From Cavenderia fasciculata (taxonomy: Eukaryota; Evosea; Eumycetozoa; Acytosteliales; Cavenderiaceae), in assembly GCF_000203815.1 (NCBI RefSeq), contig NW_004457624.1, positions 2,976,001 through 3,040,000 of the forward strand: a stretch of 64,000 bases of DNA, written 5' to 3'. Positions 1 to 14,307 of the stretch are shown piece after piece; the first letter of the stretch is position 1; every line of letters starts with the position of its first letter. The translations under genes and the position numbers were made by a program. Under the pieces are notes generated by a model. That model searched no databases. It was given only the letters and a program-made list of their open reading frames with translations, and was not told where the DNA came from.

Positions 1-1218
1 GTGCCTGATTGGTCGACTTTTAGATTGGTACCATACACTAAAGGAACGGCTCAAGTATTTGGTCACTTTTACAGGGTCGATCCTGCAACTAAAAAGATCG
101 TACAATGGGATCAATGTCCACGTGTATGTATTGACAAGGCTGAACAAGCACTTGCTCAATGTAAATCACAAGACGACAACGTTGGAGGAGGAGGAGGATT
201 CATTTTAAAGGGATCTTTTGAAGAGGAATTCTTTTTGCTCAAGAAATCGGCACTTGCCAACGAACCACCTGGAACCAAGTGTCCACCACCAGTAGAGAAC
301 TATACATTTGCTAGTGTCTATAGTTTGGATGAAAATGCCGATGTGATGATGGAGATTGTTCAGAATTTGGAAGACCAAAATGTCCCCGTCGAACAGATGC
401 TCAGCGAGTCTGCACCAGGCCAGTTTGAATTGACCGTTCCATACTGCGGTATCCGTGAAGCTTGTGATCGCCACATTATCGTTCGTCAGACCGTCCACGC
501 CATCGCCCACAAGCACGGCTACATCGCATCGTTCCTCCCCAAAGTATACCAATATGCCGCCGGCAGTGGATGTCATCTCCATCTTTCACTCTGGGCGTCG
601 AGATCTCCCACCGACAAAACCCTCGTCAACACCACTCCATTGGCCGGTGGGGTTGCAGGTCTCTCCAAATCATCGGTTCGTGCCATCGCAGGTATTCTCT
701 ACCACACCAAGGCTATGACAGCCATATTCAACGCTAATGAAAACTCGTACGACCGTTTGAAACCAAATAGTTGGAGTGGAGGCTCGATTGCATGGGGTGT
801 CAACAACAAAGAAGCTATTGTTCGTGTACCAACCTCTGCTAGCACACCTGTCAAGGGTAACAGCAACTTTGAGGTCAAATCAATCGACCATACATCCAAC
901 CCATACCTTGTCATCTCTGCTATCATCTATTCGATGATTCATGGTATGACAGACCCAGACCACTCGATTGGAGAGTATCCACCAACCTCGATCAACCCAT
1001 CGGCTCTTACCAACGAGCAACGTGATGCCCATCGCATCCAACCTATTCCATCGTCTCTCTCGCAAGCACTCACTCATCTATCAAATGATAAATACCTTAC
1101 CGACAATCTTGGAAAGAATCTTGTCAATGCCTATATCCAAGTAAAGAAATACGAATCAAAAGAATATCGTGATCAACCCTTTGAATATGCTAGAGATGCT
1201 TTTTTACAAACTTATTAA
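1..1218 (+). CDS. Type-1 glutamine synthetase, C-terminal 405 residues (5' end outside window)
   Basis: This is the catalytic part of a glutamine synthetase of the type I / FluG-lengsin branch, the enzyme that makes glutamine from glutamate, ammonia and ATP. The visible frame is open to the first base of the window, so the GTG at base 1 is an internal codon and not the start. Seen motifs are GSGCHLHLSLW near residue 188, NSYDRLKPNSWSGG near 248 and the WGVNNKEAIVRVP stretch near 264, which match the family's glutamate/ATP-binding blocks (H-x-H-x-SL, and N-x-SY-x-RL followed by an R-x-P loop). The frame ends at TAA 1216-1218. Dictyostelids are known to carry type-1 enzymes beside a type-3 enzyme. 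The N-terminal beta-grasp domain is only partly visible. No intron is seen in this part. Whether it has kept synthetase activity or is a lengsin-like relative cannot be decided from this fragment. Confidence 0.85.
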   Translation: MPDWSTFRLVPYTKGTAQVFGHFYRVDPATKKIVQWDQCPRVCIDKAEQALAQCKSQDDNVGGGGGFILKGSFEEEFFLLKKSALANEPPGTKCPPPVENYTFASVYSLDENADVMMEIVQNLEDQNVPVEQMLSESAPGQFELTVPYCGIREACDRHIIVRQTVHAIAHKHGYIASFLPKVYQYAAGSGCHLHLSLWASRSPTDKTLVNTTPLAGGVAGLSKSSVRAIAGILYHTKAMTAIFNANENSYDRLKPNSWSGGSIAWGVNNKEAIVRVPTSASTPVKGNSNFEVKSIDHTSNPYLVISAIIYSMIHGMTDPDHSIGEYPPTSINPSALTNEQRDAHRIQPIPSSLSQALTHLSNDKYLTDNLGKNLVNAYIQVKKYESKEYRDQPFEYARDAFLQTY

Positions 1219-3221
1219 AATATAAGAAAGAACTATAATAATAATAATAATAATACTTAACAATCATCATAATCATTTTTTACTAATAACTCTAAATAAT
1301 AAATAAATAATATTGTATTTATATCTAACCAACTAAACTAAAATGAATGAATGTCTTACTTTTGGTGCTTAATATTTAAAAATAAAAATGAATATTTATT
1401 TTCTTTGGGGGTTTTGAAAATTTTTGGTTGGGAGTACCGCCTCAGAATCTATTTATTTGTAAAACTTATTTCTCTCTATGGTCTTCTTTATTTTTAATTA
1501 TTCTTTTACCAATCGATAGATCTTTTAATTATCTATCAAATGGTTGACAAAAAAATTTGCGAGAGGTTCACCCTTCTAAAAAGTACTTTCCGTAAAGTCG
1601 CCATTAGCCATGGGCTAAGATGAGGTCTAGAAAGCATTGTTTGGAAAAACAAATGATATAAACAGAAAGAGCACAAAAAGTTGTATCTATTGGTGATATT
1701 GGATCGTCGTTTCAAAGATTATTCAAATAAAAAAAATGCTATTCTTCAAAGCCTATCTCATATAGTAAACATGCAACCATATAAAACTACGTGCTACATG
1801 GATCGGATCACGATTAATCAAATAAAAAGACAAGCGCCAACGCAAGAGGTGTAGGCGCCTTGAATCTTCAACATTATATGCACTGGTGTCGGCAGTGTTC
1901 AATGCATGCCACATCCAGCAACGCTAGACAAGATGGTTAGTATATTTGGAATGGATCAATAATCAAATAATTCAGAAGTGGTCAATCTCAAAACAATTGT
2001 GAACGCTCAAGAGTAATGGTAGCTTAATCTCATATATCGATATCATGGTTATTTATTTGGTACATACTAGTATTATTGTAATTGGCTCTTTTAAAACCCA
2101 TCAAGGCTAGTGGTCATGGACAATTTCGCATTCGGTCTATCAAAACCATCCATTCTAAAAGATAATAAATAATAATTAGTAAACAGTATTTATGACAGTA
2201 ATTTTACAAGATACATATCTTTACAGTTTTTAAAAATGGACCAACTCGTCTCTAATCAATTGATTCTATATTTAAAGTACCAATATATACAGACTTGTTA
2301 TAGATTTAAAATAAAAAACCCATCATCAAGAAAGAAAACACATACAATCTTTATGAAAGAAGAAATTGACGACCAATCAACTTTGCCCTCACGCGGTAAA
2401 CAAATGGCCTTGTTTGGAAACTTATGAATATACCTACCGAAACAAACCCGCACACTCCAAGCACGCCAAATGATCGATCAATTCCCCCAACACTCAAACT
2501 ATACTTGTTTGGTTCCCCAACTTTGAGAATCCCATTTAAATATCTACAACATATCATCTAACAACTGTGTGTATGAAAAAATCTTTCTCTTTTCATTGCG
2601 GTTGTGGAAGAGGAGGATGAAAGAGATGTAGGCCTGGAGGAGATGAAGAGGAGGGAGGAAGGGGCCGAGTTATCATACAAATTTAAAACTATAATGGGTT
2701 GACATAGTTTCAAAATTAGTTGTGAATCATCACAGAGTGATTGTTGGTCTACGTCATGTCCTCTAAAGGCGTCATTCCCATTGTTGATTGACTGATTGAT
2801 GATTGTTTAAAATATCTTGATGAATCTAATCGATCGATGGTTATTGTTGTTGGTGTCATGATGATGATGAATGAAAATTCTCCCTCCAAAATTAATTAAT
2901 TCTCTTCATGACATGATAGTGCTGTGCTGTACTGTGTTCTCATATTTACTACTTGTATTGTATTGCGCGAGACCCATCCTAAAGTTAAATTCATTCATTC
3001 ATTCGAGACAGACATCATCCATTAAATGACGATGATGATTGAGATTTAATTTAACTTGATACCCTATACTACATGTGTTGATGAACCTCTGCTTGTAGTG
3101 CTTCGTCGCCATTTGTATGTCTTCTCAACAGGAATGACGTTTTATTTCTAATGCGTTGCACTTGTCTTAATGGGAATGTTGGTTTAACACGGTCGCCAAT
3201 TAATCGTTGGTAGACTGTTGG

Positions 3222-3268
3222 AGGTGTTGTTGTTGTTGTTGTTGTTGTTGTTGCTGCTGCTGCTGCTG
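3222..3268. repeat. TGT/GCT trinucleotide microsatellite
   Basis: About nine TGT units run into five GCT units and then a short TGATGC-like continuation. It lies in non-coding DNA. Confidence 0.9.
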
Positions 3269-3730
3269 GTGATGCAGAGATTGTTGTTATTGGTACTAAT
3301 GCTACTGATACTGATGCTGCTGCTGATGCAGTGATAGTTTACTCATGATTAATATGCTTAAAATAAAGATAAAAATATATCTATAATATTGATAATTCAT
3401 TAAATAAAGATATTATCAATTTAATTAAATAATTAATTGTTTGTTTATTGATTCTACACTTTTTTTTTTTTTTTTTAAATTTTTTTTTCTCATGAGATAG
3501 TGCGATCTTTATGCGTGCCGTAGGTGACTGACCTGATACATTGCGAGGTTTGAACATTTGTTTCAAAACAACAACAGCAAATAGCCCCTCTCTCTCATTA
3601 ATAAATGGATCCTATCAAAAAGAAGAAACAACAATAGAATCATACCCTGATTTGGTATCATACACCCCCCCTCTCCCTCCTCCTCTTCTCTTCCATTTTA
3701 GATCTTGGTTCATATAATGAGCCTAATCCG

Positions 3731-3893
3731 CACCCCCCATCCTCCTCCTTATCCGCCTCACTCATATAGTGAATCAACACGCCCATAATCTGACGGTTAC
3801 ATCAAAGAATGATCGTGCTTTGGTGATCATATCCAACCATGACTACCACCCCCCTATCCTCCTCCTTATCCCCCTCACTCATATATTCAATCA
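3731..3893. repeat. Pair of ~46 bp direct repeats upstream of the Fanzor gene
   Basis: Two near-identical copies start at 3731 and 3847, 116 bp apart. Each has CACCCCCC, then TCCTCCTCCTTATCC, then CTCACTCATATA. A shorter shared word, ATGATCGTGCT, follows each copy. They lie within 540 bp upstream of the Fanzor start codon, so they could be part of a mobile-element end or a promoter duplication; the sequence alone does not decide. Confidence 0.75.
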
Positions 3894-4265
3894 TAAATGA
3901 TCGTGCTGCTGTGGCTCACCTAGGCATCATGAATGCCCCCATTAAACGGTGGTGATGACACAGTTCGGGTATTAAGAAACCACCATACGATTATGATATC
4001 ATTGGGACACAACCCCATCTGTATATGTATCACCCTCACTTTTTGTTGGTAATCAACAAAGACAAGAAAACATTTGTTTAAAATAAAATATTATTCATCA
4101 AGCTCCAATGTTCTCTATTTAAAGTGTTCTTTTTTCTCATCACATCATTATTCATTTTATCTATCTTTTCTTCAATTCATTATCTTTCTGCTATATTGTA
4201 TTACCTTTATATATTTTTTATATAGGAAGCTTCTAATTGAGGTTCACTATCGCACAGTGGTCATC

Positions 4266-7200
4266 ATGAATGGCCCACTTCCATCCGCAACAGAGACAAG
4301 AACAACTCAATACCCTCTCGATCGTCTCATGGGTAAGAAGTGGAATAACGAACAAAACTTGTTTGTGACACATCTCGGCCAATATGCAAGATACTATCAC
4401 TCTGTTAAGAGGTTAGTAGGCCAATTTTTTTTAATATTTGTATACGACTTTAATAACAGTAAGATATCATCAACCTTTTTTTTTTTTTGAACATGAATCA
4501 TTCAGATAAGTTCATGAACTAATTGATCGATTTCATGTATTTTACCATTTTTAGTGTTTAGTTTGTCCCGACAAGAACTCGAAAAAGTAATACCAAAGTA
4601 TTACGACATGAGTGTTCTTTCAAAGAACAAAACAAATGAATTATATGAAAAAATGGAAAATCGGTTGACTTTGCCGATTCGATGGGATTCTCTAATTGTG
4701 GAGGCCATCATCTCAAAGGTGATGGACATAGACACACGCAAAAGCAGTAATAGTCCAAGAGATTATGTATGTATAACAGTCTGTGACAGTTATGATGTGT
4801 AATAATAAATTAATTTTTATTTTATTCTTTGTTTACTCTTTACAGAATTCTGCACAAGATGTCCAAGCAAAAGAGAAAATCGTCAACAAAATGCTATCGA
4901 GAACATTTGCCAAACTCAAGGTAGACGAGATGGTTGCAAAATATCAAATCCTCCGATATGCACTCCTTGACCCAGATCTGAATCCAATTGGCTGTTGCCA
5001 CTCTTATAAAACCGCCTTTGCCAACTCCATTTGCAATAGTTACTCGGCCGAGGTGGCCGAGACCTGCAAAAGGATGGTGGAGAGTGCTTTAGACCGTCAA
5101 GATGACCGAAACATATTCCACCACGAGTCCAAGTTGGTGTCGGATCTTCTGGAGGATATACTTGCCAAAATAGATGATGGTGATATCGGTGAAGGGTACC
5201 AAGCTCTCAAACTAATATTTTCATCTCAACCATTAAAAGGTATGTCATTGATATTAACACCATCACAGGTTTTTTTTAAATATCTTCTTGCGTCGGTTCA
5301 TGTAACTCGATCTCTCATTTTGTTTATCTTTTTCTCATACACGTCAAAAGGGGCAGTTTGCGGAGTGTCGATCAGATCTTTTTTTTTTTTTAATATTTTC
5401 ATTTTTTTTTTCATCTCAAACAACTCACAGAAACCAAATTTAGAGAATGTATATTAAACTATTAAATAACATCGCACACTCAACACAACATTATCAATAG
5501 ATAGAATACAGCGAGTATTGTTTATAGTTACACTTTTAGTGTAAGAACCCACACATCACTATCATTACTCCTCTTTTACACCATTTCTTTTTGATTATCT
5601 TTTGTTTTCATTGGTTTACCAATCAATGCACCACCCATCTCTTTCCTTTTAACTACTCATTGTTGGCCAAGTTCATCTTTACATATCATTGACCTCTTGT
5701 GTTCACTCATAAATTATATAATCCTTTTTGATCCAAATCAAGTACCAATCTACACTACCACTCTTTATCGCTCTGCATCCTTTTTGTTGTTCGTTTGATC
5801 CACTCTCCTATCCGACAAACTTTCTTTACCACTTAACTTTCCATCAGATACTGCAATCAATCACTACCATTGCTCCTCTTTTACCCTTTCTTGTTTTGAT
5901 TATATTTGTTTTTATTATCGAGATGCACCACCCATCTAACCACTCGCCTCATTGTTGGTCCCAGTCTATTTCATTCTCTTCCTAATTGTGCACCAACCAA
6001 ACACATCGCCCAACTTTTATCATTTGTTTTGTTTGGTCAATGATAAGTGTAATCATCAACACCTTTTTCAAATACCATGCATGGTCTGTTCACCAAGCTA
6101 TACACTACTTGGCCATCTCTTATTTTTTATTTGCTCTTTGTTCAAAATAACCACACCCTTTTGTTTGTTAGTTTGATTCACGGTAACTTTCTTTATCACT
6201 TATCTTTCCATCAGATCGATAATGCAAAACATCACAATCATTGCTTTTACACCATTTCTTTTTTGTTTTCATTATCCAATCAACGCATCCCTATCTCTTT
6301 TGCCTGCTCTCTCTATGCAGTGACAGACCTGTCAAACCTTTTTTTTTTAATTTTAAACCTCTCTAACATTTATTACATTTATCATTATAGATCATAATTT
6401 GGAATGCGAAAAGAAAAGGTCAAAATTAAAAGAGGAAAGAGAGGCCAAGCAAAATCAAGAGCCAGCCATTCCCAAGGAAAAAAAAAAGAAGAAACAGTTT
6501 TTGGGTGACAAAAGGCCTGAAAACTTTGATGAAATCAATTTTGATGCATCTGTTTATTCAATATCAAATTTGGCCACAGATTTAGAGATTGATAGCAAAA
6601 ATGTAAAGAAATTAAAGGTTGAAGAACATATATCTGGTGATTATTTACAATCTGAACTCTCATCAAAGTTGGAAGCGTTGATCCAATCATCAACATCAAT
6701 AAGTGCCTGGAGTGGGTTAAATACCCTCCAATTGAATAGATTGAAAATGCTAAATTTGGAAAATATAATTAATCCGTAACTATTATTATTATTATTTCTT
6801 TTGTTATTTTTTATTATTATTATCATTAAATTAACTAATCAAATGCTTTTTTTGTAATCTTATTTTTTTTTCTATAGAGAGGACAATTCAATCGATTTTT
6901 CAAAGTTGACAAAAGATCAATATCCATCTTTAATGGATTTTTGTGAATCAAATGGATACAAGTTTCCAAAAGGATATGACCCTACAGGATTGAAATCCCT
7001 CATGACGTCCGATTTGGAGACGATAAAAACTACTCCTTTCGCATTGAATAGCTTTGCACCACAAGCAAAGTATGTATAAAACAATTGACCAATATCTTTT
7101 TTTTTATATTTTTAAAACTAATCCTCTTTTTTATCTATAGATTCAACAGTACTTTTATCCCATTCTCGATAGAGTTGTTTGTCAGTATAATCGTCAACTC

Positions 7201-10200
7201 TGGAATAGATATGTCCCTTGGTTTGACCGACAAACACAAAATATTAAGGTATATTTCAAAAATATTACCTAATTTGGAAAAAGAAATTGGTCATCCATTG
7301 GAAAGTGGCTATCCATTGGATAGATTTAAGTTTTTCGACAAGGAAATTGAGATCCTCAAAGCTTCGCACTTGGCTTCTTTTCCTTCATCGTCAGATGTAA
7401 CAATATCACCATCCTCTTCGTCTGATGTAACAACATCACCATCCTCTTTGTCTGATGTAACAATATCACCATCCTCTTCGTCTGATACAACAACATCACC
7501 ATCCTCTTCGTCTGATACAACTACATCTCCATCCCCATCATCAAAAAAAAAAAGAGGTAGACCTCGTAGTGAGATTGTGGATATAAAGTTAGAAAAATTC
7601 CCTGATTTTAAAGATTTTAAATTGGAGGATCTTAATCGACAATTGGAACTTAGAGATATCGAATCCCCAAACATTGATACACGAGTCCAAGAAGAGGAAA
7701 ATATTAAAAGATTGAAATTGGTTTTATGGCAAGACATGGTAAAACGCTTGCAAATAGATTTTAAAGAAGACTTTGACTACAGCAAATCCAGTCAAGTTAG
7801 CATTTTAAAATGGTTATCTTTACCTACTAGCACTATTAAAATCGAATATGATTGGTACTGTTGTTCATTGCCAACACTGAAAGGAACTCTCAAGAAACTA
7901 TTCAATGACAGCCCAAAGGTGAAGAGAAATGAGCCAAGGAAATGGATGCCAAAGTCTCTTGCTTCAACAAAAAAATCGTTTCTTTTTCGTTACTATACGA
8001 TTGGATTTGTTGGAAAATCAGTCCTCTGCGATTATTTGCAATCACCGTATGTAAAAGACAACCCATTCGATTTCAACGGGTCAACAAAAACAATTCACCC
8101 CAACTTTAATGATTACGAAAGAGACAATATTGGTTACATTTATAACCAAAAAATGTCGGTCCTAATCAATCAAAGGGCGATGATGGTGACAACCAACGTT
8201 CCCAGCCATATCTGGTTCCAAACAAAAAGTAAATGTCATTGTTTTAAAGCATTATTATCTTTTACGACCCATTCATTTTACTAATATTTAATTTTAATCT
8301 TTATATAGGTGCAAATGAAAAAGTAGTTTCTGATGTGCAAATATCCATGAATAGCCGTCTCTTGCCATACCATTTGAAAAAGAGACAAAAACTAGAAGAA
8401 TCTTTTCCAGAGCAAAGTTTGGTCTCTCAAAAAAACGGTCAAGATGGCACACCCATGGATGATTCCGATGACGACGACGATGATGATGATGAATCATGGA
8501 AATGTAAACAAGTAGAAGAAATGGAAAAGAACCATTCATATTCATACAACCATCCCCACTATGCTTGTTTTGTGGCAAAACAAGTTGGGTTGAAACCAAA
8601 CATTCCCAAAGTCAAGGATAGAGATATTATCTGTGCCAATTGTTTGTCATCCCACTCACTTAAAGATTTGCCTATGGTGTGCGAACAATGTGATGCGACC
8701 ATTCCTATTCTATCGGAACATGAAAAAAGATTGGATTTATGTGGTGACCTGATGGATCTGTACTCGGTTGATATTCAACTAAAAAGGAATGCATTTGAAA
8801 AAATGCCACCCTTTGATTCAAAGGATGATCAATTCCCTCCACCAGTACCATTAATTGCCGAAATCAATCATCGACTCGTCAAATTTGACCAACCTGAGTC
8901 ACCCCACGTGGAGATTTTTCTACACGAGGCTCTCAACACCACCTCGATAGCACTCAACAGTAACAGGTCAGGAATTGCACCCTCCATGCGGAACCTATTC
9001 AATCTTATTAAAACTACATCCGATCCCTCGATGCAATTTAGAATTCGTGATGCATATCCCTTTGTCCACGACTCGTCTACTGGCGGATTTGAAAATGAAA
9101 TCAAACATGAAATCATGGTGAAGGAATTAATGAACCATTTTTCAATGACAACGTCCAAGCTCATTATTGTTTGTGGACAATTCCCTTGCAAGGCAGCCAA
9201 AGAGGCTTTTAATGCCAATCCTTTGGATTACGAAATGGTTGACTATAGTCAAGAATCTTATCACACCATTTTAGATAAAGCCAAAGGCACAACCGAGGAC
9301 AAAGAGGTGGATGTAAGTAGGATAGTTCCTAAAAGGCTCATTGCTATCGCTCCGCATCCATCAGTCATGTTTGCGTTGCACATAACAGCAGCCTATATTT
9401 TGATTGCTCATGATATCTACAAAATGGCTCCAAAGGTATCTCAATTTGACCCAGTTCAAACATTTAAATCGAATTCCCCCTCGTCTGCCTCGTCCTCCTT
9501 CTCCTCCACGTCCTTATCATCCACGTCATCTTCATCATCTGCCTCGTCTTCCTCGTCTGCCTTGCCCCCGTCCTCCTCGTCCTCCTCCACGTCCTTATCA
9601 TCCACGTCATCCTCATCATCTGCCTCGTCTTCCTCGTCGTCCTTATCATCCACCTCATCTTCATCATCCTCCTCTTCGTCCTCCAATCAAAAGACCACCA
9701 AACGCCCAAATCTAAGTAACAAAACAAAAGATTTTCCTTCACTTAAACAATGGACGTTGGAACATCTAGTTGAAGAGGCCACATCCCGCAAAATCGACGT
9801 AGAGAATATCAAAGAAGATCGTCTTCAAGTTGAATGTGTTTTGTTGAAATCGGTCCTTGGGTTTCAAATATGGTCAGAACAAAAAATTGAACAGTTTGAT
9901 CTAGAGGAATCAAAATCGAAAAAAGATATACTGGCCTATGCGAGAGAAAAAAAAATCCCTTTGACAGACTATTGGTTCTTCATGACGTTGGAAACCCTCA
10001 AAAAAGCCGTGCAAAGGTGTCTCGCTTCCACCTCGTCCCCATCTCCGTCCTCCTACTTGCCCACCCCTTCCTCACCCTTGACCGATATCTCACTCCCCTC
10101 TTCCCCATCCTTGACCGATGCCCCACCCACTTCATCCTCATCCGATACCTCAACTCCACCCTCTTCCACCGATACCTCATCCTTGACCGATACCTCAACC

Positions 10201-12174
10201 ACCTCATCCGATACCTCAACTCCACCCTCTTCCACCGATACCTCATCCTTGACCTATACCTCACTCCCCTCACACTCATTCTCCTACTCCTCCTACTCTA
10301 AACCTTTTGTAAAAAATGAAAAGTGCGTTTACAAAGATGAAGAGAAACATATAAGAGCAAAGAGAGATTTTTATCACTCTGGAATGTGTAGAAGGCGCCG
10401 AAGCAAATGGAAAGTTATGAGGGAAAACAACCGTGGCAATTATCTTTATATCGGAATTGATCCTGGAAGGTCAAAATGCACGATTGTAGACTCTATGAAT
10501 CGTGCTCGAGTGGTTTCAGTGGCATCTTATTACAACCTCATGGGCACTGACCGTCTTCTGGCAAGACAACAAAACTACAAAAAGAACCCGGTCCTGTCCA
10601 AATTTGAAAGTGGATTGCCAACCTATAATACCTTTGGTAAGTGTTATTTTAAATATTCATTGTCTATACCACCTATATATTATAATATTAATATTTATAA
10701 ACTAACTTTTTTTTTAATTCCTAGATACTTTATTCAATGTAGAATCTGTATTGAGACGAATAGAGTATGAAAGAATTACCCATAGGGATCAATGTCGTCT
10801 TTATTCCCATGTAGTGACGTCCTATACGTTTCAGACCATGGACAAGAACAGGAACATTGACAAGAAGCGCGCCCAATATGCCTATGCAAAGAGCTTTGTA
10901 CCACCAACAACAATCCCGAAAAATAGAATAGTGATTTGTATGTTTTTTTTATTTCTTCAAACCATTTATTATTATTTGTTATTAATCTTCTTTCTTTTTA
11001 TAGATATTGGAGGGTCTGATTTTTTCCGTGGATCCCGAGGTGGTGGTAGAACTGGTTGTACATCAAAGACACTACTCAGACTGTTTTTGAATATGGGTTA
11101 CAAGGCACGTCTTGTCAATGAATTTAATACCTCCAAAGTATGTGTGTTTTAATAATTGAATTTTTAGATCAACCCTCGAAATGGCTATTCATTAATATTT
11201 TTTTTTCCAAGATTCATAATGCATGTGCCTCCAAAATTCATTCTACCAACAACAACAAGTTCCTAGAAAAAGCTAAACACCAAAAGGTTAAAAATGTGTT
11301 GCCAGAATCTTTTGAAAAGACCCATGTTGTTGGTGCACCCATATCCTCCACGTTTTCAGACAATGGTGTTCGTTGGCAAGGAAAGGATTCCAAGTTATGT
11401 GATGGTTGCAAATTGACTGATTACAATTGTCAATGCTCCAAGGCTCAATTGGCGGACAAAGAGAATGATTCAACTCTGAAAGTGTCTCAATTGGCAGATG
11501 ATATGAATGAAACTCTAAAAGTATTCATATCACTTGAAAATACTTCACCTTCTCCAACTATGCTATTGGAATCCCTTTTCTCTTTAAGCAAAAAGACTGT
11601 CAAGGAGTTGATAGAGTTTTGCAATCTAAACTCTATCAAATACAATCAACAAGAAGAGCCAACCAAAGGGAAAAACAAAAGAGGTTCTCACAAGGATAGT
11701 AAGGGTGGTGCTACCAACAGCAAAAAGGACCAACTTATCAACGCTATCATCAAGTTTAATTTTGAAAAACAAAAAAGGGATGCTAGCAAAAATAAGAAAA
11801 AGAGGTCAAAATCGTCATCAACTACTAATGATCGTTGTAAGGACCAAGATCAAAGCAATAGTCAAAAGGATGGGAACAAGTCTACAAGCAACTCTGTTTC
11901 GACCCACGATTATGGTTTTGGTAAGTCTCTTTGTGATAGTCAGATCAAAGATCTCTGGAAGTCAAAGAACCCAAATGCGACAGAAATGCCATTTAAAACT
12001 AAATGGCAATGGCTATATTGTCCAGTTTGTGATCATTTCTTCAACAGAGACTCGAGCGCTGCAAAGAATATTCTCTTATTGGGAATCTTACACCAAACCG
12101 CAGATTACAGGCCATGGATTTATCGTCCTTTACCTGCCGATATCGTGCATATTGGGAGGGTAGACACGACCTAG
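4266..12174 (+). CDS. Fanzor-type (TnpB-related) RuvC nuclease, 2015 aa, ten exons
   Basis: Exons are 4266-4411, 4562-4766, 4846-5239, 6391-6775, 6878-7069, 7141-8228, 8309-10636, 10725-10937, 11004-11137 and 11212-12174. All nine introns are GT-AG, all phases match, and the sum is 6048 nt with no internal stop. The C-terminal third has the Fanzor/TnpB order: RuvC-I GIDPG with D1521; a conserved central block including GGSDFF; NEFNTSK with E1690, the alternative RuvC-II glutamate position typical of Fanzors; a zinc ribbon with C1758/C1761 and C1965/C1968; and RuvC-III NRDSSAAKNI with D1975. Fanzors are RNA-guided DNA nucleases, often carried by transposons. The protein is far longer than usual, because of Ser/Thr/Pro-rich linkers and extra N-terminal domains. 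The ATG at 4266 is the first good one, but an acceptor at 4225 leaves an upstream exon possible. Guide RNA partner and activity are inference. Confidence 0.85.
5552..6300 (+). repeat. Three diverged copies of a ~300-370 bp repeat inside the 1151-bp third intron of the Fanzor gene
   Basis: The intron 5240-6390 is over seven times the size of any other in this gene. It contains a pyrimidine-rich unit three times. Copies of the word CATTRCTCYTTTTACMCTTTCTT-like start near 5552, 5858 and 6231, each followed by TTTTGATTAT/TTTTCATTAT and a CCAATCAAYGCA or GATGCACCACCCATCT segment. A second shared block, CTTTMCCACTTAWCTTTCCATC, occurs near 5823 and 6190. Spacing is 306 and about 373 bp. Confidence 0.7.
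7383..7542 (+). repeat. 30-bp coding minisatellite, five units, in Fanzor exon 6
   Basis: The unit encodes the ten-residue motif SPSSSSDVTT with variants DVTI and DTTT, five times in a row, followed by a KKKRGRPR basic patch that looks like an AT-hook or nuclear localisation signal. It forms a flexible linker between two folded segments. Confidence 0.9.
9475..9690 (+). repeat. Serine-rich simple sequence in Fanzor exon 7
   Basis: Imperfect TCC/TCA/TCG repeats encode a Ser-rich linker of about 70 residues. A second Ser/Thr/Pro/Asp linker with units such as STDTSSLTDTS follows at 10030-10300. The opposite strand shows long artefact frames over both, which are not genes. Confidence 0.9.
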
Positions 12175-12477
12175 TTAACCTTAACAGGGCCTTCCTGCAT
12201 AAATATGAAAGTCCCCCCCCCCAGCTGTAAGTTATTAGATAGAAAATATAATGTTGATCTCAATTTACTGATTTTCCCCTTTTTTTCTGTACTTTGTCTT
12301 TTTTTTTTACTTTGTCTGTTTTTTTTTTCTTTCCTCAATTCAAAATAAAAGTTCAAATAGTTTAGAGTTCTGATGCTTGAATCGTCGGAAATTAGTAGTA
12401 TTATTTATTAAAGAGAGAAAGAAAGAGATAACATGTATATATAAAATAACAAAAGAGAATAACAATACTACGAAAGA
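12175..12477. other. Spacer after the Fanzor stop codon; C9 run and possible RNA region
   Basis: It holds a run of nine C at about 12213-12222, a short hairpin-like AGGGCCTTCCT at 12187-12197, and T-rich runs near 12285-12335. In TnpB and Fanzor loci the guide RNA usually overlaps or follows the 3' end of the gene, so this is where it would be looked for; I see no conclusive structure. Confidence 0.4.
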
Positions 12478-14307
12478 ATGAAACAATATTATTATGTATT
12501 GATAATATTGTCATTATTGTTTATAACGACGATAGATGCTTCACAGTATATCTATTCATATCAAATAACTAGATATGATCCTAATCCATTAGTTGTATGT
12601 TTTGACAAAAGTTAATATAACATCATCATCATCACTTCTCTTTACTTACTTTTGTCTATCTATTATTACTTTTGCAGCAATTTGTTTATCTTGAAGGAGG
12701 AACATTCTCTATATCTATTAATGCAAAACCTCAGAATCATCCTTTATTCTTTTTACTTTGTTCAGATGATGATTGGAAGAATGTAACTAAACTATATAAT
12801 GATACATTACATACTATGTTGATGATTAATAGTTTTATCTTTCTTATTCTCTTTTTAGATATTTGGATATAAGATACCAGAACCAACATGTAATTTATTA
12901 GAAAACCCAGAAATGTTAAAGATATGTGATGTTGGAGTCAATTTTACAGATACATTGTCAGTGTACAAGGTCATTACAAAATACAACAAATATTTGGTCA
13001 ATATATTGGATTGTCAAGATAGTGTGGTGCAAGAGAAACCAGTCAACATCACGCTGGACCTAAAGATGATCAATCCAGACAATAACAATCTATCGGCAGA
13101 ATTGATACCTGCACCATTCATGTATACTATCATGGGTATACTGTGGTGCATCGTATTACTGTTCTGGCTCTACAACAATATCAAACACGTTCAAAGAATA
13201 TCAAAGATTCATTTCTTTATGACACTCTATCCTCTGCTAAAACTAGTCATTTGCTTTTACAATGCATCCCTCATTAGAGACTTATCACATCTCGATACTT
13301 CACCAACACAAATCTTTTTCCGTAAATTCTTGGACATCTTTTTTAATCTTTACATTCAAGTACTCTTATTGTTACTTGGTACCGGTTGGTACGTCACTCA
13401 AAATACAATCAAAGGTGATAGATATAATATGATGGCTTTGGTTGGTGGTTTATCAGTTGCTATGATTCTTGATGAATTATATGTTTCTGATAGTATTTCT
13501 TATGTAAGCTAAAAAAAAAAAAAGAAAAGAAAATCAAATCAAACAAAAATATTAATTTTATTTCTATTTTAGTTATTTGTAGAATTATTTATATTATCAA
13601 TTAGAGTATTTTTATTATTCTATGTATTTATAGCAATTAATATAAATTCAAGACAATTAGAATATCATATTCTACAATACAATCCTTCACAAGAATCTCA
13701 AACAACACTTAGTCAAGAGGAAATTGTTTTATTTATTAAAAAGTTTAAATTATTTGTGTATGTAAAAAACTAAACTAATGTAATAGTTAATAATAATATA
13801 TATTAATATTTTTTCATTTATTTATTTCTTTGTAGAATGTTTAAATTAATATTATTATTTTGGGTTGCACTTATAACTTTAAAATTCTTTACCTCTTTAT
13901 TATTGTATGGAGGAATCATTAATAATTGGGTATCAATGATGAATAGTGAAAATATAGATTTAATTTTATTTATTTGTATTGGGTAAATATATAGATATAA
14001 TCAAAATTACAATTATATTTATAAATAATATATATTAATCCCTTTCTTTTTCTATAGGTACAATTATAGGGCAAGAAGTGAAAATATATTTAAAATCATT
14101 AGAATAAGACCACCTGAATTGGATTCAAGAGTTAATCGTGAACATATGCATCATAACCTTGTTAGAAATCAACAACAAAATCAAAATAATAATAATAACC
14201 AAAGTGACGAAGACGATAATAATAATGATAATTATGATGATGATGAAGATCATGGTATTGAAATGCGTGATTTATCAAATAATAATAATCGTCATAATAA
14301 TATTTAA
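12478..14307 (+). CDS. Seven-transmembrane receptor-like membrane protein (GOST / lung 7-TM type), 482 aa
   Basis: Exons are 12478-12594, 12678-12782, 12859-13503, 13573-13757, 13836-13982 and 14058-14307. All introns are GT-AG and phase-consistent, and the sum is 1449 nt. The protein starts with a signal peptide (MKQYYYVLIILSLLFITT), followed by a lumenal domain of about 170 residues with several Cys and Asn-glycosylation sites. Seven hydrophobic spans follow: FMYTIMGILWCIVLLFWLY, HFFMTLYPLLKLVICFY, a leucine-rich span before GTGWYV, MMALVGGLSVAMI, LFVELFILSIRVFLLFYVF, MFKLILLFWVALITLKFF and IDLILFICIG. The cytosolic tail is rich in Asn and Asp. A signal peptide, a beta-rich lumenal domain, seven TMs and the RISKIHFF segment after TM1 fit the GOST superfamily (TMEM87, GPR107/108, TMEM145), which acts in Golgi and endosomal membranes. 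The subfamily is uncertain. Confidence 0.65.

Follow-up and report, generated by a model that had tools for sequence, protein, structure and literature searches.

Fanzor1 genes carried by DNA transposons have already been described from the slime mould considered here. In the part of Bao and Jurka (2013; PMC3627910) that deals with D. fasciculatum, four Fanzor1 families are listed, of which DFa-1 to DFa-3 are given as Sola2-type elements; they share AWWT duplications, inverted repeats of 12-13 bp and 5' parts, 2.5-3 kb long, that hardly differ. DFa-2 has an 888-residue transposase, most of which is lost in DFa-1 and DFa-3. The passages on protein size in two later papers put most Fz1 at 600-700 residues (PMC11423790) and some Fanzor1 at up to ~800 (PMC10711439). 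The locus analysed here is a 64,000-nucleotide stretch of the Cavenderia fasciculata genome (contig NW_004457624.1; hereafter 'the window'), in which a Fanzor-type gene encoding 2015 residues was found to be the cargo of a 10,965-bp transposon (window 1390-12354). The genome searched comprised 31.0 Mb in 21 contigs, the window lying on contig 21 at 2976001-3040000.

The limits of the element were set by comparison of copies, whose agreement starts at window 1390 and stops at 12354 (Table 1). Probe counts across the genome are lower bounds: a 211-base RuvC-I probe was located in at least 12 places, at least 10 of them at 98-100% (window included) and two at 72%, and a 3' probe (window 11900-12420) in at least 17, at least 12 of them at 98-100% over at least 457 bases, the remainder being three shorter pieces and two distant ones at 75%. 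For eight insertions, namely the window, six other copies and a chimera, sequence was read at both ends. AAAT stood on both flanks in seven of these, while the eighth (C1:108.7k) had AAAT plus an extra T at left; among four left-only insertions, three had AAAT and one ATTT. The right flank read AAAT in all nine fetched copies, and these constitute the test of that end, because the other pattern search itself required AAAT there. The left element end was not found in two loci, L035 and L036.

A relative, L051, has the same left end and ~4.7 kb that are absent from the window element. It contains two frames, of 411 and 385 residues, that run against the direction of the Fanzor gene. Two pieces of the start of this transposase gene persist in the window as a remnant (Table 1), the greater part being gone. 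The 411-residue frame had no Pfam match, and the name Sola2 was therefore taken from Bao and Jurka. As these authors describe DFa-1 to DFa-3, the window element resembles all three in its 4-bp AAAT duplication (AWWT), its 13-bp inverted repeats, the shared 5' part and the position of Fanzor1 in the 3' part (PMC3627910), and it resembles DFa-1 and DFa-3 in that the transposase is mostly deleted. No difference of kind from the published account of the DFa group was seen in the features compared. The element fits DFa-1 or DFa-3, the two not being told apart. An initial reading made from the sequence alone had suggested an active or domesticated eukaryotic RNA-guided nuclease with new accessory parts; Fanzor1 in Sola2-type elements of the same slime mould was published in 2013 (PMC3627910). 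The kind of element is already known, and what is new is the size of the protein and its split zinc ribbon.

The element was mobile in the recent past. Nine copies (window plus eight fetched) were checked for an intact frame and six were open: the window, L013, L015, L016 and L021 throughout, and L019 from base 11, the preceding ten bases lying outside the fetched stretch. Pairwise synonymous divergence (dS) between these six ranged from 0.0008 to 0.0105 (15 pairs). In L014, L018 and L020 the frame was broken by a common 4-nucleotide length change in exon 3, accompanied in L020 by an additional frame change in exon 7; given that all three carry the same change, out-of-frame copies seem to have spread or arisen from one another. 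This check leaves out L017 (C1), which is without window 2450-5539 and hence without exons 1-3, and the partial copies C2:1005k and C10:243k. Separately, a chimeric element (L049, C3:1827200-1835300) was observed to carry exons 1-3 of the window gene, with 98% agreement in exon 3; behind these come other sequence and a different, smaller Fanzor-type end.

The intact ten-exon gene proposed in the sequence-only reading was recovered when its exons were rebuilt. Spliced, they amount to 6048 nucleotides, in phase, with the sole stop at the end of 2015 codons, and each of the nine introns had GT-AG borders. Elsewhere in this genome a second family, represented by L022 (C18) and L023 (C4), which are 99.7% alike, aligned piecewise with the window protein from residue 4 to residue 2011, with no match to residues 54-123 (mostly exon 2). 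Its introns fall at corresponding places, exons 1-2 not being resolved exactly there. Intron 3 measures ~89 bp in the second family against 1151 bp in the window, which supports the otherwise doubtful joint of exons 3 and 4; the long intron 3 of the window is probably inserted sequence. Direct repeats of ~50 bases were seen inside this intron (window 5240-6390). Protein identity between the families was 51% over 1702 aligned codons, with proportions of nonsynonymous (pN) and synonymous (pS) differences of 0.32 and 0.69 respectively; codon positions 1, 2 and 3 differed 649, 485 and 909 times, between-family dS being near or at saturation in most stretches. At the level of genomic sequence, the match to the second family shows the ten-exon reading to be more than chance.

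Assignment to Fanzor was evaluated through catalytic motifs and profile searches. According to Yoon et al. (2023; PMC10711439), Fanzors are marked by a DPG motif in RuvC-I and by a glutamate that precedes the zinc finger by six residues. The window protein has IGIDPG at D1521, and its alternative glutamate, E1690, is followed after six residues by H1697; D1975 is carried by CPVC-x5-RD. With D1521, E1690 and D1975 in sequence, the motif order is of Fanzor type, as originally suggested. The C4 pattern given for Fanzor1 in PMC3627910, D-X(125,275)-[TS][TS]-XX-C4-X(5,50)-RD, agrees in two spacings, with 171 residues from D to TS and 5 between the last C and RD, but not in its ligands, which read H, C, C, C. 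The zinc ribbon claimed for the protein holds for its second half, where CxxC and RD are present, but the first pair reads HNAC (1697-1700), i.e., HxxC where CxxC is expected, and lies 264 residues before the second; a weak Rho_N match (0.0068) falls inside the insertion between them.

PF07282 matched all five related families, the best at 7.4e-6 and the window at 6.3e-3, and genome-wide it matched 23 places, one of them above the cut-off. NCBIfam TnpB models matched the last 87 residues of the window protein (0.044-0.05) and gave no match to a longer piece of 546 residues. A five-family profile retrieved 11 PDB sequences at expect values (E) up to 10, among them LaTranC (0.0011), TnpB-like L79 (0.0064) and Cas12m (0.037). 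Spliced residues 1470-2015 gave two weak, irrelevant matches in PDB, and the whole window protein had no informative match in Pfam. The Fanzor assignment appears sound in the main; its grounds are the order of the motifs, the TNB segment, the link to families of this genome that match better, and the published elements, rather than a strong match of any profile to the nuclease as a whole. Further Fanzor-type families were noted on C2, C3, C5, C14, C18 and C21, including one with six identical-scoring places and one above the PF07282 cut-off.

The protein is unusually long, as the sequence-only reading had held: 2015 residues is far above the sizes stated for Fanzor1 in the passages cited above (PMC11423790, PMC10711439). 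SpuFz1 (638 residues), as presented in the relevant part of PMC10432273, shares the RuvC D-E-D order and a zinc ribbon ahead of RuvC-III; unlike it, the window protein has an HxxC first pair, a 264-residue insertion in the zinc ribbon and a long N-terminal part. PpFz1, in the corresponding section of PMC11423790, is likewise a Fanzor1 enlarged in its nuclease part, by an FRI insertion of ~100 residues, whereas the window insertion sits between the zinc-ribbon halves and most of the extra length precedes RuvC. Bacterial TnpB is similar in the TNB/RuvC-III segment; unlike TnpB, the window gene has the DPG and alternative glutamate of Fanzors, contains introns and resides in a eukaryotic transposon. 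Literature on Fanzor in Dictyostelium, amoebozoa, slime moulds or Cavenderia yielded only Bao and Jurka (2013). In the main-text passages covered, no printed description was found of a Fanzor1 layout of ~2000 residues, of the conserved 980-1180 domain, of a repeated 110-residue module, or of a zinc ribbon that begins with HxxC and is split by 264 residues.

The additional parts said to lie in front of the nuclease do exist and are conserved from one family to the other, but none of them could be matched to a known domain. Between-family identity was 43% for residues 1-460, 63% for 980-1180, 63% for the RuvC stretch (1465-1715) and 76% for 1926-2011, which places residues 980-1178 among the best conserved parts, alongside the nuclease. 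Searched for up to E 10, that domain occurs in this genome at 12 places, all of them in the two families. Two modules of ~110 residues both recur in the second family, and the independent sign of this is a cross-match at E 1.6e-5; scores from the module profile follow by construction, since its input was these same four pieces. For the modules, Pfam returned only weak, unrelated matches. Scans of IMG/VR confirmed no relatives. Structure prediction for residues 980-1178 from the window sequence alone gave a mean predicted local distance difference test score (pLDDT) of 34.9 and was not used. A uracil-DNA-glycosylase (UDG)-like fold, an idea formed by eye for the same residues, was rejected: there was no Pfam UDG match, the UDG profile found four other places in the genome and never this domain, BLASTP gave two short weak pieces only, and profile comparison with two host UNGs scored 10.6, inside the range of 30 shuffled controls (10.1-20.7).

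Taken together, these data make it probable that the locus is a Fanzor1-type gene on a DNA transposon of Sola2 type from which most of the transposase has gone, with the following mechanism. Movement would be in trans, by transposase from a more complete relative, for example L051, acting through the shared inverted repeats. The protein would bind a guide RNA running from the right end of the element into flanking DNA and, so guided, would cut the emptied donor site or empty allele beside an AAAT-like motif; repair of the cut site would then copy the element back. The long N-terminal part may add binding of nucleic acid or of a partner. The protein is most likely an RNA-guided nuclease aiding persistence of the transposon, its nuclease activity and guide RNA being inferred.

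Several results weigh against this account. The window family is below the curated PF07282 cut-off, the zinc ligands are H, C, C, C, the first being histidine, with the pairs far apart, and a designed C2H2 finger, Aart (0.0046), ranks between LaTranC and TnpB-like L79 in PDB. The RuvC/TnpB match foreseen for the C-terminal part was borne out weakly by the zinc/RuvC-III segment, against TnpB-type profiles, but not by RuvC-I and RuvC-II, whose profiles had no relevant profile or PDB match. When the zinc part of a related family was compared with PDB, ordinary C2H2 zinc fingers ranked first, and for that reason this search alone is no argument for Fanzor; the RuvC-II piece of the same family matched nothing in PDB. 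Among the six open copies, the ratio of nonsynonymous to synonymous divergence (dN/dS) was 0.34-1.37 (15 pairs), with no selection visible at that depth, because the open copies are young and the changes too few. A structured guide RNA at the right end gained no support, as this end (12100-12354) showed no structure above shuffles (fold z-score -0.03), a result that leaves a guide RNA possible, and window 1300-12600 had no Rfam match at the gathering threshold. Just behind the stop codon, a short block shows partial conservation between families. In two other Fanzor families, L048 and L049, a noncoding block lies right after the stops and agrees at 24 of 25 bases in one stretch; it is perhaps a better guide-RNA candidate than anything in the window.

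The lack of structured RNA at the right end would also suit a RuvC-like nuclease that acts in transposition itself without a guide, for instance by assisting the Sola2-type transposase with end binding or nicking, as would the ~1450 residues of extra conserved protein, the unusual zinc ribbon and the large loss of transposase from the window element. Nonetheless, the catalytic motifs follow the order seen in RNA-guided Fanzors, and the related families D and E of this genome have a shorter zinc part and score better against TnpB profiles, so that we judge a guide-free role unlikely. A further proposal, tentative and rather unlikely, is that no larger Fanzor is known than this one. It would be an RNA-guided nuclease in which ~1450 residues of accessory parts under selection (the ~200-residue domain and the pair of 110-residue modules), together with a zinc ribbon split into HC and CC halves, serve functions beyond cutting, e.g., holding transposon ends or replacing lost transposase parts.

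It is decidedly improbable that exons 1-6 and 7-10 are two genes, which would reduce the Fanzor protein to ~1200 residues or less. The joining of ten exons is known from genomic sequence alone, and exons 1-3 occur apart from the window Fanzor in the chimera L049; against this, all nine junctions are GT-AG and in phase, similarity to the second family breaks and resumes at corresponding intron borders, that of intron 6 included, and exon 7 by itself links residues 980-1178 to RuvC-I with no intron between. A domesticated host gene would account for the long conserved open frame, yet the presence of at least 10 near-identical copies with transposon ends and AAAT duplications makes domestication very improbable indeed; the lone, possibly domesticated gene envisaged at the outset is instead one of these mobile-element copies.

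Table 1. Features of the Fanzor-carrying element (positions are those of the window)
Feature	Position	Strand	Basis
Left AAAT target-site duplication	1386..1389		copy comparison
Left 13-bp terminal inverted repeat, element start	1390..1402	+	11/13 bases match right end
Transposase-start remnant	3084..3215 (pieces 3215-3141, 3128-3084)	-	tblastn with L051 frames, E 2.9e-11 and 2.9e-5
Fanzor-type gene	4266..12174	+	ten exons, 2015 codons; second family and other copies agree
Exons 1-5	4266-4411, 4562-4766, 4846-5239, 6391-6775, 6878-7069	+	rebuilt from sequence
Exons 6-10	7141-8228, 8309-10636, 10725-10937, 11004-11137, 11212-12174	+	rebuilt from sequence
110-residue module copy 1, residues 585-698	7571..7912	+	cross-match
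Conserved domain, fold unassigned, residues 980-1178	8836..9432	+	63% identity between families over 980-1180
110-residue module copy 2, residues 1270-1378	9706..10032	+	cross-match
RuvC-I aspartate D1521 in IGIDPG	10459..10461	+	sequence
RuvC-II glutamate E1690 in NEFNTSK	11120..11122	+	sequence; kept in 5/5 aligned families
First zinc pair H1697-x2-C1700	11215..11226	+	HNAC/HNTC in two other readable families
264-residue insertion between zinc pairs, residues 1701-1964	11227..12018	+	sequence
Second zinc pair C1965, C1968 and RuvC-III aspartate D1975	12019..12051	+	CxxC and NRD kept in 5/5 aligned families
Right 13-bp terminal inverted repeat, element end	12342..12354	-	copy comparison
Right AAAT target-site duplication	12355..12358		copy comparison

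A Fanzor roughly three times as long as usual, and conserved over most of that length between two families, would reveal how RNA-guided nucleases of compact build can grow larger in eukaryotes. With many young open copies in one slime-mould genome, its expression, any guide RNA and any effect on transposon retention are directly testable. Beyond the element, the end of a glutamine synthetase gene was identified at window 1-1218 (PF00120, 1.5e-76), 171 bp upstream.

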